Below are positions 15,226 through 30,818 of a stretch of DNA of 64,000 bases, in pieces. Location of the stretch: the NCBI GenBank assembly GCA_942159475.1, contig OW804096.1:111202194-111266193 (forward strand), given 5' to 3'. The DNA is from Sthenelais limicola (lineage: Eukaryota > Annelida > Polychaeta > Phyllodocida > Sigalionidae). A program made the translations under genes and the position numbers. Numbering within the stretch: the stretch's first letter is position 1; the number at the start of each line of letters is the position of its first letter. The notes below the pieces were generated by a model. The model searched no databases, was not told the DNA's origin, and saw only the letters and a program-made list of their open reading frames with translations.

Positions 15226-15819
15226 AACTGGTATGAGAATATTTTATGTCATGTTACGACATGTGATATATCTCCAATATTTTTTCTAAAAAACATTTAC
15301 ATATAATTTTGACCTTCTTAATAATTATTTAAGCCTGCTTGAAAATGGTGAAAAATATAAATATGATTAAATAATGATGTAATTTTGTTTTGTTTTTAAA
15401 AGGTTTTATTCAACATAATGCTGCCATCTGGGCTCATACAATTCTAAGTATCATCAATGTTGCGTCCCTTGTAGGTTTTTTAGTTTTTTTGTTTTTTTCT
15501 TACATTTTCTTTCACTCATCATCAATGATTTGATATCTCAGTTGTTTATCATTTGTACAATAACGACTTGGTTCTGACTTACTGACTTCTTCACCTTACA
15601 AATTCGAGAAACAAATTTTGGACTATCTCTTACATTATGCGAGATGTTTATTCGTCCCCTTCTAACTCACTCAAGATTTTATTCCAATCATTTTCTTTGG
15701 GTTTTTTTCTCCCCAGAATACTATTATTATATTCCCTCACTCTTATATTCATTCTCAATTCGTTGGCAAATGCATTGAAGTTTATTTTGTTGTTGTCAAA
15801 GATCCTGAATTATCCAATT

Positions 15820-18800
15820 CATTGTATTTTTTCTCTTATTTTGACCACTGTATCCCAACAGAATACTTGTGTTATTTAACTCTCCTTCCTTAAACCCTGT
15901 TAGAATTTTACTGTTTTTGACCCACTTTCTTATCTTTTCCCACAACATATTTGGCTTTGTACAACCAAGGAAAAAATGATCAATCGAGTCGATCTTGTCA
16001 CAGTATTCACAGTATGGAGATAACTTTATCGTTTTCTGTTTAAGGTATTCGTTACAACCAATCGTCCTATGGAGGACTCTGTAATGCAGAGCTTGCCACT
16101 TTTACAACATTCAAATGATATAATGAATTTTTTTTCCACAATTCCAATGACCCAGAGAAATTCTCATCACGAATTATATTGTTCCATCCCTCTAACTTTT
16201 CATAATCTGGTTTGGAGAGTTTCACCAGCTCCTCATATACCTCTCTGTTCATAAAATCATATACATAGTATCTTTTCATTTACATGGAACATTATGTTTT
16301 TCTTTTTGGGTATGACAAAAATATCTGAGGCAATCTGACGAAGCCACTCCCTTAAAGCTTGGTATAGCAGAGATTAGTTTAAGTCTATCAGTTATGTCAC
16401 AATTGATATTGTATTTTGCAATAAGCTCTCCTGTAGACATGATTTTCTTTTCACCATTCAATAAATCACCAATAATTTCGATACCATTTGCCTTCCAATC
16501 AATGTTTCTGAGTTTTTTCCCATCTTTCTTAACCCACTGGTTCTCCCATATTCTTTCAAGGTAGACTTCCAAACCAGACTCTGGTTTTCGGCTATAGTAC
16601 ATTTTATTCCATTCCTTTAACATCTCAGTGTAAAAGCAACTTAGTGACTTTTGTGGCATGTTTTTGTTTGTCAATACATTCTCGATCTTATTCAGATAAA
16701 ACGCTTCTAATATCCCTGCCCATTTGGAATGCGGTTCATTCAACAATCTTTGAATCCATTTAACTCTGTTAGTTATAAAGATTTCTTCTACACACCTAAC
16801 CTTCATGCCACCGTTTTCGTAACTTTGTTTTAAAAAGTCAAAACTGATCTTCACCCCCCTTGATCCCCACATCATCTTCTTTGTGAGAGATTTTATTTCT
16901 TTTCTAACATTTTCATCGAGTTGGACACACAATAAAATATGTTGTACAATGGGTAATATTAGTGTGTTATTTATGGTAGCCTTTCCTCTCAAAGACAAGT
17001 TTCTTCCGCTCCATATACCTATTACCTTTCTCATTTTAGACAAAGCTGTATCATAATTCGCTTTAGCCTCATTCCCTCTGTTGTAAGGGTTGAATATGTG
17101 GATTCCCAAGATTTTTACTGAATTCTCCCACTGAATTCCATCTTCCACTTTGACATTATTTCTTAGAGATTTTCTAACTATTATTCCTTTCGTTTTCTTA
17201 ATATTTAACTTTAAACCAGAGGCTTCTCCAAACAATTTGATGTTAGCCATTGCTTTGAGCATAGAAACATTGTCTTCTGTCAGAATTGTGGTGTCGTCTG
17301 CATATTGTATAATCTTATGATCAATTCCACCAGTCTTCATACCTCTTATGTTTTCTGCTTTCCTTATACTATTAGACATGTATTCGACAATAATTGTGAA
17401 TAAAAATGGCGATATGGGGTCGCGTTGCTTTACCCCTTTCTGTATATCAAAGTATTGAGAAAAATAACCATTGACCGTGAAGCACGCTCTTGATCCCTTC
17501 AAAAATATTTTGATCCACTCAATAATATACTCAGGAAAGTTAAAAACTTCCAGACCCTTAAAAAGAAACTCCCAACTGATTGTATCATAAGCTTTTTGAA
17601 AATCTAACGTAACCATCCTTCCTTCCTTATTTTAAAATTTTTGGAAGCTCAGAATGTCATGCAACCTTCGAATTGCTACACCTATATAACGCTTATTCAT
17701 GAAACCGTATTGATCTTCATTAATAGTATTGTTTAATACACATTTCATTCTCTCAGCTATAAGTTTTGACATGATTTTATAATCGACATTTAACAATGTG
17801 ATTGGTCTCCAGTTATGTATATAGCGCAAATCAGCCTCTTTTTTGGGAATTACAGAAACGACCCCTTGGTATTGGTCCCAGAACATTTTACCACTAGCCT
17901 TTACATCATCAATCATGTTACAAAACAATGTCTTAATATCATGCCAGAAAAATTTATAGAACTCAACGGTCAACCCATCGTTACCTGGGGATTTCCCGTC
18001 TTTCATCTTAGGAACACCTCATGCTCTGTTATATTTCTTTCTAACCTTCCATGCTGCGTATTATCTATCTTTACGTCCCTTTTTGCTGTCGACCGCCTCA
18101 TATTTAAATAATTTTTCATAAAAACTCCTGCCTTCTTCTAGTATTTCCTCTCTGTCATTACTTAGTTTTCCTCTTATGAACAAGTTGTTAATTGATTTTT
18201 TTTTCCCCATTACCTTTCTCAATATTAAGGAAATATTTCGTTGGCTTTTCTCCAGCCCTTGCCCAATTAGCTTTAGATCTAAACAAGGCTCCCTCTGCCT
18301 TCAGAAGCTCGCTTGTCATTTAGTTATTCTTGATCTCTTTCATTTTGTCTATTTCTATCTCTTCTAACAAAAGTTTTTCGTCTAACTCAGCCAGTCTCTC
18401 TCTATTACTCTTTCCTCTTTCTCGTCTCACTCTAGCATCCCTCACACTGATCTTCACAGCCAGGCTTTTACATTCATTTTTGACAATGTGCCACCTGAGA
18501 CTGTCACTAATACCACTAGCATCTTTGTATTCTGCTATGATTTCTCTTACTCCCTCAGTATATTCTTCCCTCTCAAGCAATCGACTATTAAATTTCCAGA
18601 ACCCCTTCCCTCTACCCCCCTCCCCCCCCCCCGAGCAAGATATGTTCACCTCTTTGTGATCTGAGAGCGTACTAATTTTTACTTCAGCTGCGACCAGTCT
18701 AACTAGCAAGTTATCCTGTATAAATATATAATCAAGCCTAGATCTTTGGTGTTTTCTTCTCCATGTATGTTGAGACTTATTAACCGAGGCCAACGCATCA

Positions 18801-19395
18801 TTAAGTTCAAATTCATGAATTAACTCTGACCATGCAATTCTGGCTTTGTCCCTTGGTTCCCCCTCTATTTCCAGATTAAAGTCACCCATTAATATAAGGC
18901 TATCATAAGACATATTATTGACAGTATTTTTAACCTCTGTAAACATCTCAATTTGCTTTTTGGCAAAACATGCATTGGGTACGTACATCGAGCATACACA
19001 CAGTTTGGCTCCTTCTATCTCGAGAATTACATATACAAATCTCCCGTCCCTATCCCTCCCATGATCACTTCCACATCAAAATCTGGCGTTAACAGTATCA
19101 TTGATCCCCTTTTACTCGGAGAGCCATGGCTGTAGAACATCCTACCAGGCCACTGACTTCTCCATATTACCTCGGATTCAGCCGAACTATGAGTTTCCTG
19201 GAGCGCGAAAATAGATCTTTTTTGACATAAAAGGTTGCTAAACATAGCTTTTCTTTTTTTGATCTGCCCTAAACCGTTAACATTTATCGATATAAAATTT
19301 ATATTATTGTTTTTGGGTTCTCCCCTTGCCTGCAGGACTGATGATGTTGTTACTTGATGCTGTTCCTCGACCCGTTTGTTGTTGTTATCCTCCAT
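15820..19395 (-). pseudogene. LINE ORF2: AP endonuclease + reverse transcriptase + CCHC end (broken)
   Basis: The N-terminal part (19395-19027) has the APE signatures NVNGLG and LQETHS. After a frameshift near 19045, the frame 18988-18320 has MGDFNLE, SRLDYIF and TLSDHKE, the catalytic Asp/His set. The next 300 nt shift again. The frame 18006-16276 then holds the RT: DGKSPGNDG, NWRPITLLN, DQYGF, TLDFQKAYD, GVKQRDPISP and QYADDT (catalytic Asp pair), interrupted by one TAA near 17632. Two more shifts follow, at about 16278 and 16067. The C-terminus ends with a knuckle (CEYC ... DHFFLGC, 16016-15958). The protein would nick target DNA and copy the element's RNA. This copy cannot make it whole. 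Confidence 0.88.
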
Positions 19396-19437: not shown

Positions 19438-21087
19438 TTATGAGTCTTTTGGCACCACCTTCTTCGCTCTTGCCTTGTTGATACTTTCCCTTACTTTGGT
19501 CCAGGCAGCTCCCATGATATTTCCGTTCTTTGGCCATTTTGTCTGGTCAAACAGGTCAGGGCTTCTGAGCCCCAAACCTATTCTCCAAACAGAGTCACTT
19601 GGCGATGCCTCTGCTAGAGCCGTGTCTCCTGTATCCACCAGGTATTGCACAATGTCAATGTTATCCTTGACTTTGGCCCGAAGCCCTTCTACAACGATAT
19701 CATTAATCTTAGAGAACCATTCTATGTACAGCTTTGACGCTGTGTTCCTCTCTGCATTCAGGGTTCTCTTTAACATTACCACGTCGTGAAGCCCCAGCAT
19801 GGCATATGCCCTTATAAATTCTCCTGTAGCCTTCAGACAAGAAAAGGTGATGTATTGTTCCATGGAACTGAACGACACCCCATTTGTCTGAAATCTAGCC
19901 ATGAAATGATTCGACAGTGGTGAGTCTTGGCGGAAAAACGCAAACACATACTCATTTTCTGCTTTGGAGAAGGACATCGGATTCAAATCTTTGGGGAGAA
20001 GATCATACCTGTCACAGGGTATCACCCTGGCAAAGTCTCCTGTGCCCAGGTAAATGTTACCTTCGTGCTGCATAACTCTGCCATACACACCAAAAGCCCT
20101 CGCTTTCCTTACCACGAACTCGGCTCTCGCCACTCTTTCTCTGAGTATTTTTGGTAAATCCCTCTTTACCCAGACCTTTTTGGGTCCTCCAGCCTCTAGA
20201 AAGAGGTCTTTTAAGTCGAATCTTGCGTCGTATAGGTAATCAGCTTCTGTCTCCTCTTTGAATACCACTTTGACGTTCTGCCCTACCCTGTAGTATTTTA
20301 AACCTTTTGGTACGGGCATCTTGGCACCTTTTACAAAGATGGTCTCGATCGCAGTTGGTAGGAAAGTTTTGTCTTCCTCTGGGGTTCTTTTTGGGATCCC
20401 TTAAAAAATTAGGCATCTTTTCAGGGCGTCCTTGTCTTTTAGCAATCTATCGTTCTCTGATTTCTCTGCTTGTTCCGCAATTTGGACGAATACTTTGTCC
20501 TCTTTGCGTACCATAACTTTCTCCATGGCCACCTGTTTTCCTTCCAGTTTTTGCACCTTTTTGCTAAGTGCCTCAAACTCTGTCCTTATCTTACTCCCAG
20601 CCGCCCTGTTTTCTTTTATAACAGTTGATTGTGCTCTCATCATGGTTGCATGTTTTGCATGTCTTTAGTGAGTTTTTAGTCACCTTTACCGCTCCTAGGC
20701 ACTCCTTCATCTTAGCATTCATGTTAAGCATTAGCTGCCTCATGGAAACCGAGTTCACAACATTCGCTTCTTCCTCCTCAAATTCTTCTTCCATTTCTAC
20801 TTTTTCCTCTTCATCCTGTGATTCGCTAGAGTCTAGCAAATCCAAGGGGTCATATTCTGAAGCATCAGCCATTTTTTCCTCTTATTTGGTCCAGTGTCTT
20901 GCTCGTCGTCTCTTTCGTCGTCTGATAAAGCTCTCTTTGAGCTGTGGCTTACTCCACTCATGCGTCTGTTCACAAGAGACGGCCATGTCAAGGCTGTTAT
21001 GCCAATGTCAAGGTCGTTCTTGTTGACAAAGTTTTCTGACGAGGAACTAACTGGCCAGTTATTTTGCTTATTTTGTCCTCCCGACAT
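19438..21087 (-). pseudogene. LINE ORF1: acidic region + coiled coil + RRM/CTD + NADAR fusion
   Basis: The reading frame starts at ATG 21087 (MSGGQNKQNN). A single-base slip in an A run near 20880 moves the frame to an acidic stretch (20872-20650, EEEKVEMEEEF), and a second slip near 20645 restores it. A Lys/Glu-rich coiled coil follows (20643-20420). The motif RCLIF then meets an in-frame TAA (20403-20401), with GIPKRTPEE directly after it. This resembles the RNP2 strand of the L1 ORF1p RRM (x-IxGIPE). VKVVF is an RNP1-like strand, and DLPKILRERVAR matches the CTD pattern. From about 19950 the protein continues into a NADAR domain. The RRM/CTD call is by pattern only. In a living element this would be a trimeric RNA-binding protein of the retrotransposition particle with an added enzyme domain. 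Confidence 0.72.
19474..19950 (-). other. NADAR (YbiA-like) domain within LINE ORF1
   Basis: Counting from ATG 20319, residues 124-282 follow the NADAR layout: an opening FAFFRQDSPLSNHF (family: F-x-SPxSNF), then VSFSSMEQY with the key Glu154 of the family's S-x-E-[QH]-Y motif. A helical middle follows, then YLVDTGDTALAEASPSDSVW (family: LLxTGDxxLvEAsPxDxxWG; Asp242 and Trp245), IGLGL, and GNIMGAAWTKVRE (family: GxNxLGxxLMxVRxxL). All signature positions I can name are present, so the fold and active site look intact. Known NADAR proteins cleave N-glycosidic bonds of ADP-ribose-type substrates, and some reverse guanine ADP-ribosylation of DNA. Activity of this domain is inference. Confidence 0.8.
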
Positions 21088-29519: not shown

Positions 29520-30818
29520 TCAAAGAGAAGTAGAGACTGTTCTAATGCATATGTACATGGTGAGGGAATAGTGTTTTACCCATTTATCGCATTCAGCCTT
29601 TTCTTTGGCTCCTAGGTGGGCTCTGCTCAGCGCATCGGCCACATTATTGATGGCCCCCGCGATGTGGCCATAGCTGAGTATGATGTTGAATTTGGCCTGG
29701 ATCATCCAGGCCATTCGGGTAGCAGAGGTCATCACAGGATTCTTGCCCTTGCCACTGGTAAATATGTGCACGCTGGCGAGATTGTCACACAGTATGTGGA
29801 TGTGGGTGCCTCGATCATCTTCAGTCACAAACGTGTGTAGGGCTCCTGCAATGTTGAGGGCCTCAACTTCTGATATGTTGTCTGACTGCATGCTGATGGG
29901 GCATATCTGGTGGGCATAGGCGTGTTGTCCATCAGTGGCACCTATCCCCGATAGGCAGGCGTCAACTAGGTATACCTTGGTGGCATGGATGGCTGGTATG
30001 AGGGCTATGCCATTCCAATCACTGCAGAATGCCTCAAACCAACGAATGTCCTTTCTCATCTCAGAGTTTATGTTGCTATGTGCACCATTGAATCCCCTCA
30101 ATGCCTCCAGCAGTCTAGAGACAAATAGCCTGGCCGGTTGCACGCACTTGCTGTCATGTATTAAGGACCCTATGAGGGATTGTAGTTCCCTTTTGGAGAT
30201 TGATCTCTTCTTGAGGTATTTCTGCGCGATCCTCACTATTTTGTCGACCTTGTCTTGTAGTATTGATAGTCTCATTAGTCTGGCATCGATGTTGATTCCC
30301 AGCCAAGTTACCTTCTGGCTGGGGGGTTGCAACTTGTCGGTGGCTTCTACTAGTTCTAGTTCTTTTAAGATAGACCTGGCGCATGAATATGCGTCCCTGG
30401 CCTCATCGAAACTGTTGCTGATGAGTGCCAAGTCATCTAGATACATGAATGCTGTGTGGCTGTGGCATTGAAGCATGGCCACGATCGAGTTCGCCACACA
30501 TTGCATGTGCGCACTGGATCATACCTTGAACATGAACACTAGGTCCTCAACTGTAGGCAGAGAGTGTTCCCTTTGTATTCCCCAGACTGAATTTTTGATG
30601 ATGTATTTATTCACAGATGATTCGTCTGGGAATGTGAGGTCTATAATCACACGTCTTGCGTCAAAGTGTTTCTTTGCACGTGACATCATTGGCGATGTAT
30701 GCGACCACTGTTTAAACGGTGGAGAATTAAATGGTCCTACCAGTCCATTCAGTTTGAGTTCCTTACTTATGAAGTGGTCGATCTTATCCTGGTACTTAGT
30801 GGCGCTCGAGTGGTTCAT
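29520..30818 (-). pseudogene. YR-retroelement RT/RNase H, internal deletion
   Basis: The upstream part has GLVGPFNSPPF, VIIDLTFP and VEDLVFMFKV. A TGA then stands directly before SSAHMQCVAN in the same frame. The segment normally between them, which carries the first catalytic Asp (xDIxxAYRxI in the family) and the PFG motif, is absent, so about 40-60 residues have been lost. The downstream part keeps FMYLDDLALI, TWLGINID and a DIRS-type RNase H (LVDACLSGIG, SEVEALN, LCDNLAS, ISYGHIAGA-like) ending in VADALSRAHLG. Such a product could not polymerise DNA. Confidence 0.8.

Follow-up and report, generated by a model that had tools for sequence, protein, structure and literature searches.

A decayed long interspersed nuclear element (LINE) lies on the minus strand of a 64,000-nt stretch of the genome of the annelid Sthenelais limicola (contig OW804096.1; the whole stretch is called the window here). 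Its first open reading frame (ORF1, 19438..21087) encodes a protein, ORF1p, that ends in a NADAR domain. A predicted model supports ORF1p as an L1-type RNA-binding subunit, with coiled coil, RNA recognition motif (RRM) and C-terminal RNA-binding domain (CTD), joined to a C-terminal NADAR. The fusion belongs to the LINE family and lineage, and it is kept by selection. The best explanation, to which we give about an even chance, is that the NADAR rides on the LINE ribonucleoprotein (RNP) as an eraser of ADP-ribose, where it would protect LINE RNA or nascent cDNA.

The initial annotation had read a NADAR from the letters of the ORF that precedes an ORF2 with APE-type endonuclease and reverse transcriptase (RT), and both the profile and the predicted fold bear this out. 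The domain (PF08719; 19480..19929, minus strand) occupies residues 158-307 of a 320-codon frame, 20400-19438, that is open throughout. It is the sole Pfam domain over cut-off in that frame (55.5 bits against 35.1, E 1.1e-14), and the same profile gives 69.9 bits in sister copy L115 and 68.5 bits in L125. A sequence search against solved proteins returned one relative at E 10, the NADAR 8bau (5.7e-4). The stretch is also matched by phrog_1017 (PHROG, unknown function, 2.7e-18) and by the PADLOC candidate model PDC-M42C (4.2e-22). Window ORF1 had no match in the protein database at 1e-3, and scans of viral contigs with ORF1 and with the RT returned no relative.

The remainder of the architecture rests on an AlphaFold2 model of 408 residues of ORF1, in which a single in-frame TAA (20403-20401) was read through (mean pLDDT 83.7). 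In the model a long helix leads into parts that resemble first an RRM and then a CTD, and the NADAR fold comes last. The putative coiled coil is a single long helix (20437..20661, model residues 2-76). It is followed by a predicted RRM of the LINE-1 ORF1p type (20161..20415, residues 84-168; Foldseek to human LINE-1 ORF1p 2ykp/2yko, 2e-4) and a CTD of the same type (20047..20151, residues 172-206), all on the minus strand. By fold, the model matches 8bau (5.7e-9) and YbiA (2b3w, 8.8e-7) best. Next comes the trimer of human LINE-1 ORF1p, with six chains matched at E <=0.001, of which 2ykp scores best (2.0e-4). When the 320 residues are modelled alone the predicted fold still matches 8bau (1.0e-6) and 2b3w (7.1e-5). 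The model and its match to LINE-1 ORF1p thus agree with the coiled coil and RRM/CTD-like region that had been proposed upstream of the NADAR.

The extent first given for ORF1 holds at one end. The NADAR-bearing frame does stop 42 nt short of the ORF2 start codon (ATG), but the start of ORF1 lies further upstream. ORF1 begins at about 21087 and runs in three segments (frames -2, -1 and -2), with the TAA in addition. The upstream pieces are 21087-20833, 20881-20591 in the other frame, and 20664-20401 in the frame of the NADAR part before the TAA. By eye, the N-terminus at 21087 resembles the one in L115, where ORF1 is open over 545 codons.

What does the open NADAR frame mean in a dead element? 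The window copy has at least eight disabling changes over 5.2 kb (our own count from the reading frames). At that lesion density the chance of a 963-nt stretch staying intact is about 0.2 by simple arithmetic. Therefore, the openness of this one frame is weak evidence, since it would arise by chance in about one in five cases, and the weight rests on other copies.

Prevalence and selection in two LINE lineages

The 960 nt of the NADAR-bearing frame were searched at the DNA level against the genome, which has 1.13 Gb in 161 contigs. There were 22 matches including the window, two small ones being left out. The 19 further family loci (L109-L127) were read; a single interrupted copy is split into halves as L110 and L111. 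The NADAR part is present in 17 of the 19. L127 holds a remnant, and no NADAR was found in the 2.6 kb read of L123. Family copies without the domain had been named as the sign of a chance insertion, and these counts do not point that way. Five loci (L115, L116, L118, L119 and L120) have an open 545-codon ORF1 that ends in NADAR, with the endonuclease frame directly downstream. Copies L115-L120 are 97.6-99.8% identical to one another over 954 nt, which indicates a young subfamily.

The association extends to more distant relatives. The window RT was used to search the genome, and the best 94 loci of 11,946 first-look candidates were scored (two small second pieces among 96 rows were omitted). 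Their identity spans 95% to 43%, in five tiers. NADARs were located with that of L115 (150 places used, 152 matches reported, 3,811 first-look candidates) and counted if they lay upstream of the RT, on the same strand and within 9 kb. Such a NADAR occurs at 58 of the 94 scored loci, window included, and in every tier (3/5, 12/23, 12/24, 7/10 and 24/32 from highest to lowest identity). The crude chance expectation is 0.0006 per locus. In 49 of the 58 the distance from NADAR to RT is 1.8-2.41 kb. Frequency varies with the length of the ORF2 frame: 20/21 at 1,260 aa or more, 33/38 at 1,000 aa or more and 25/56 below 1,000 aa, with both thresholds set after viewing the list. The 36 loci without a listed NADAR cannot be called NADAR-less, because scoring was confined to the best candidates and many of the copies seem to be truncated. 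Five of the 36 have an ORF2 frame that reaches 1,000 aa or more: C1:92210245, C2:97286899, C5:105454462, C5:68412193 and C1:92773879. Taken together, the counts make NADAR a standing part of the window's LINE lineage.

A second LINE lineage in the same genome also carries NADAR. It emerged from a Pfam NADAR profile search with 5,561 first-look candidates, the best 150 of which were scored; all are over cut-off (103.7-119.1 bits). Twenty of these (within L083-L102), chosen for differing scores, were read at 9.4 kb each. All of them match endonuclease-RT downstream, in the same orientation as the NADAR; the match is nearly complete in 17 and fragmentary in L084, L091 and L099. The NADAR frames are 219-827 aa long, and six aligned ORF1s show an RRM/CTD-like region, then NADAR, then a variable tail. 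Where ORF2 forms one long frame, as it does at 12 loci, its length is 905-1,081 aa. The RT is 22-30% identical to that of the window in 12 of 13 compared (L098 was unmatched), and no zf-RVT was found at E 0.05 in six ORF2s scanned whole. At a guess, this is a CR1-like LINE. Five more of the 150 (L103-L107) were chosen for short open frames. L106 has the ORF1 and endonuclease of the second lineage, and the ORF1 of L107 shares 98% identity with its counterpart in L086, with no endonuclease-RT within the stretch read. In four proteins, P0063-P0066, the part that precedes the NADAR can be aligned with the window RRM/CTD.

Did the two lineages acquire the domain separately? In the NADAR tree the second lineage forms one clade with P0063 and P0064 (97/91), and the window's family forms another (100/100) on a very long stem branch of 3.09 changes per site. 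However, trees forcing the lineages together are not rejected (p-AU 0.11, 0.07 and 0.12 in one test; 0.09, 0.15 and 0.18 in another). Since this includes a single origin of all LINE NADARs specifically (0.11 and 0.09), two captures are suggested and not established.

Purifying selection on the NADAR was evident by the Nei-Gojobori method. Top-scoring copies were sampled, which biases the comparison toward intact ones. Among 18 pairs of the second lineage seven are informative (at least 20 changes and a computable dS). The NADAR dN/dS is 0.04-0.10 in five of the seven (L085-L093 0.05, L083-L085 0.06, L084-L094 0.04, L092-L095 0.08, L091-L095 0.10); the other two are weighed below. The region before the NADAR gives 0.05-0.07 in L085-L093, L092-L095 and L091-L095, and the tail after it gives 0.23-0.49 in all seven. 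The remaining pairs are saturated for dS in the NADAR (six), lack synonymous change (one) or have fewer than 10 changes (four; 0.09, 0.14, 0.28 and 0.04). In the window's family the one computable diverged pair, L112-L115, has 0.08 for NADAR (dS 0.81) and 0.08 for RRM/CTD. The near-identical pair L117-L119 has 0.09 from few changes. Distant subfamilies of this family have saturated NADAR dS, with dN of 0.23-0.34.

The window copy and other NADAR carriers

The ORF2 of the window lies in several broken pieces on the minus strand. Its start and APE-type endonuclease (18320..19395) are spread over two frames, and the RT (RVT_1, 16276..18018) is interrupted by a stop at 17634-17632. A zf-RVT zinc finger follows (15940..16101, 29.0 bits, cut-off 27.5). 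The RT matches 62 proteins in the protein database, the closest 30% identical. Among solved proteins its nearest relative is LINE-1 ORF2p (78.8 bits, against 52.2 for R2), by pairwise comparison. The element looks L1/Tx1-like both by its ORF2, which has an APE endonuclease, an RT and a zf-RVT, and by the coiled coil, RRM and CTD predicted in ORF1. An AATAAA followed by an A-rich stretch (15405..15410, minus strand) may mark the 3' end of the element. This probable end (window 15383-15510) is repeated in inverted orientation at 48592-48469, 79% alike. Elsewhere in the window a 332-aa frame on the minus strand (29520-30518) has an RT-like YLDD motif, and we take it to be perhaps a DIRS- or long terminal repeat (LTR)-type element.

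Other arrangements of the NADAR were encountered. In the second lineage an extra ORF lies between ORF1 and the endonuclease-RT ORF of L086 (3492-4199), L094 (3606-4214) and L089 (3631-4281). A DSRG motif is present in this ORF in L089, L094 and L107 (an L086-type copy). That of L086 has a weak match to GDSL lipase (17 bits, below the cut-off of 32.9), and no Pfam family was found in those of L094 and L089. A stand-alone 162-aa NADAR ORF with no LINE parts occurs in L103 (1495-1980, minus strand), L104 (947-1432, reverse strand) and L105 (1447-1932, plus strand). The three lie scattered over a single chromosome beside non-LINE ORFs, and their shared parts are 97.7-98.6% alike. The neighbouring ORF of L103 matches an endonuclease PHROG (1.4e-6); that of L104 matched no Pfam or PHROG family. 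Perhaps another mobile or viral-type element also carries NADAR. Finally, the 1,143-aa protein P0067 combines NADAR with PF03919, PF01331 and PF03291, which we take to be parts of mRNA-capping enzymes.

Active site and possible function

The active site was compared in the numbering of the Phytophthora nicotianae NADAR, using an ungapped 318-codon alignment of 13 copies of the window's family. Seven of the 13 belong to one young subfamily, so there are about five independent lineages among them; L121-L124, L126 and L127 were left out, and the distant tiers likewise. Residues E43, K75, W89, E125, D130 and W133 are kept in all 13; E43 and E125 are the catalytic glutamates of NADAR. Glu at position 125, rather than Asp or His, places the domain in the YbiA subfamily (PMC11543638, PMC11125620). 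The initial annotation had described the NADAR as open with its motif residues intact. It is open, but three residues are changed: K50 to Cys, R93 to Ile and the Gly of WGIG to Arg. The last (Arg273, 19582..19584, minus strand) is private to the window copy, as Gly stands in the other 12. The first (Cys188, codon TGT, 19837..19839, minus strand) is not, and private decay is ruled out by Cys in 13/13. A Lys or Arg follows two residues after the Cys in every copy. In its active site the window's family departs from characterized NADAR enzymes.

The second lineage has a more orthodox site. In its 20 loci position 50 is K in 14, R in five and I in one (L091, where ORF2 is decayed). E43, K75, W89, E125 and W133 are kept in 20/20 and D130 in 18/20. 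Viral NADARs have K at this position in 45/45. In the NADAR of E. coli C7 a Lys-to-Arg change at the equivalent residue, K95R, retains in vitro activity (PMC11543638). Therefore, the second lineage looks catalytically able.

How might such a domain serve a LINE? ORF1p would coat the LINE RNA, and the NADAR would act on the RNP. There it would strip ADP-ribose from bases in template RNA, nicked target or new cDNA, with guanine the most plausible base. ADP-ribosyltransferases of host or intruder would thereby be kept from blocking reverse transcription. We infer the RNP location, catalysis, substrate and host conflict; published chemistry and biology are among what favours this reading. NADARs remove guanine-linked ADP-ribose from DNA and RNA (PMC11543638, PMC11833690), some animals, such as six clams, have guanine-N2 DNA ADP-ribosylating activity (PMC11209040), and invertebrate RNA viruses encode NADARs whose proposed target is host macromolecular ADP-ribosylation (PMC9503650). 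The LINE domain may likewise counter host ADP-ribosylation, as was suggested from the letters. The specific form of that suggestion, evasion of PARP-type sensing of nicked DNA, found no support here, and ADP-ribosylation of guanine bases fits NADAR chemistry better (PMC11543638, PMC11833690).

Several observations weigh against an RNP-bound eraser. One is the Cys at K50 in all 13 copies of the window's family, because K95, the equivalent residue in the E. coli C7 enzyme, is essential for efficient hydrolysis (PMC11543638). LINE NADARs do not conserve R93, which is Ile in the window copy and Ile or Val in the family. R79 is not conserved in one alignment, although in another Arg218 of the window, kept in 13/13, falls on it. 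Constraint on the NADAR is weaker in two informative pairs of the second lineage, L100-L095 (0.31, dS 2.0) and L098-L099 (0.58, L099 being a decayed, broken locus). Near-identical young copies give 0.38 (L115-L116) and 0.32 (L115-L118) from 12-13 changes each, and values of 0.38, 0.42 and 0.57 were obtained among the window, L109 and L110/L111. Such raised ratios are expected of young or decaying copies. Lastly, selection cannot separate catalysis from binding. If the window's family does catalyse without the usual lysine, its substrate or chemistry may have shifted.

These same points invite other explanations. Perhaps the NADAR of the window's family has lost full catalysis and serves to bind, its ligand being ADP-ribose itself or a nucleic acid or protein that carries it, for example to find a nicked, PARylated target. 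Loss of the lysine and of R93, and the very long stem of the clade, all agree with a reader of this kind. However, the six residues kept in 13/13 seem beyond the needs of simple binding and the other lineage has K or R in 19/20, which leaves a binding role unlikely, if worth bearing in mind. A function in making or maturing LINE RNA, through 5'-end, splice-leader or RNA-repair chemistry such as has been suggested for SNA-3 in nematode trans-splicing, is rather improbable. P0067, with its presumed capping-enzyme parts, speaks for it. Against it, no sign of trans-splicing was noticed in the element, although no search was aimed at it. The Ectocarpus authors do propose processing of retrotransposon RNA intermediates (PMC12477816), but the NADARs tested were inactive on phosphate-end ADP-ribose (PMC11833690).

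It is very improbable that the domain serves as an N-glycosidase acting on riboflavin-type or small ADP-ribose compounds and is tied to the RNP only incidentally. YbiA does act on riboflavin intermediates (PMC11543638), and TIGR02464, the NCBIfam model of a riboflavin-intermediate N-glycosidase, matches the NADAR-bearing frame at E 4.3e-15. Its score of 56.3 bits nevertheless falls below the 73.7 cut-off for membership, and the joining of NADAR to an RNA-binding protein, seen in both LINE lineages, speaks for a nucleic-acid substrate. Could a host NADAR gene simply have landed beside a LINE, or been fused as a passenger? The decay of the window copy, taken alone, would allow it. The locus counts (58/94, 20/21 and 17/19) and purifying selection rule it out, and we hold it refuted.

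Known systems and wider meaning

The accessory domains of LINEs reveal which host obstacles these elements have to get past. That two lineages keep a domain of ADP-ribose-eraser type on ORF1p under purifying selection makes nucleic-acid ADP-ribosylation a possible barrier to retrotransposition; no test of such a barrier was met in the literature found. A bolder idea is that NADAR is a standing LINE weapon in at least two lineages because base ADP-ribosylation restricts retrotransposons, like the DarT/NADAR conflicts of bacteria and phages, and that the lysine-less site of the window's family has a new specificity. This is possible, though doubtful. The natural Cys-for-Lys site poses a direct structure-function question in its own right.

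A LINE-borne NADAR, which the initial annotation thought possibly undescribed, has been described already, if briefly. One sentence of a 2025 Genome Biology paper on Ectocarpus states that ORF1s of several Tx1 LINE families of the oyster Crassostrea gigas appear to hold a YbiA-family NADAR (PMC12477816). These oyster elements resemble the window element as Tx1-type LINEs with NADAR in ORF1. This is the sole relevant report found, in a search that covered subscription journals and preprints thinly, so earlier ones may exist. The LINE ORF1 NADAR is therefore of a kind already known. To the available part of that paper the present analysis adds its prevalence, the selection on it, the domain order, a second lineage and an active site of Cys type.

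Other systems share part of the arrangement. An LTR retroelement with NADAR resembles the window element in joining the two, but NADAR lies in Pol and not in ORF1. Its BLAST matches are almost wholly bacterial, which raises the possibility of horizontal acquisition. Human LINE-1 has the coiled coil, RRM and CTD fold in common with the window element, and its ORF2p is nearest to the window RT among solved proteins. To our knowledge, human ORF1p has no NADAR. The characterized NADARs of P. nicotianae (8bau), E. coli YbiA (2b3w) and the E. coli C7 DarT1-NADAR system are like that of the window in fold and in E43, K75, W89, E125, D130 and W133. They differ from it at K50, in R93, for which the window's family has no equivalent, and perhaps in R79, whose equivalent is unsure. 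In animal RNA viruses, too, polyproteins carry a NADAR beside replication proteins, and here the selfish element is a virus and not a retrotransposon (PMC9503650).
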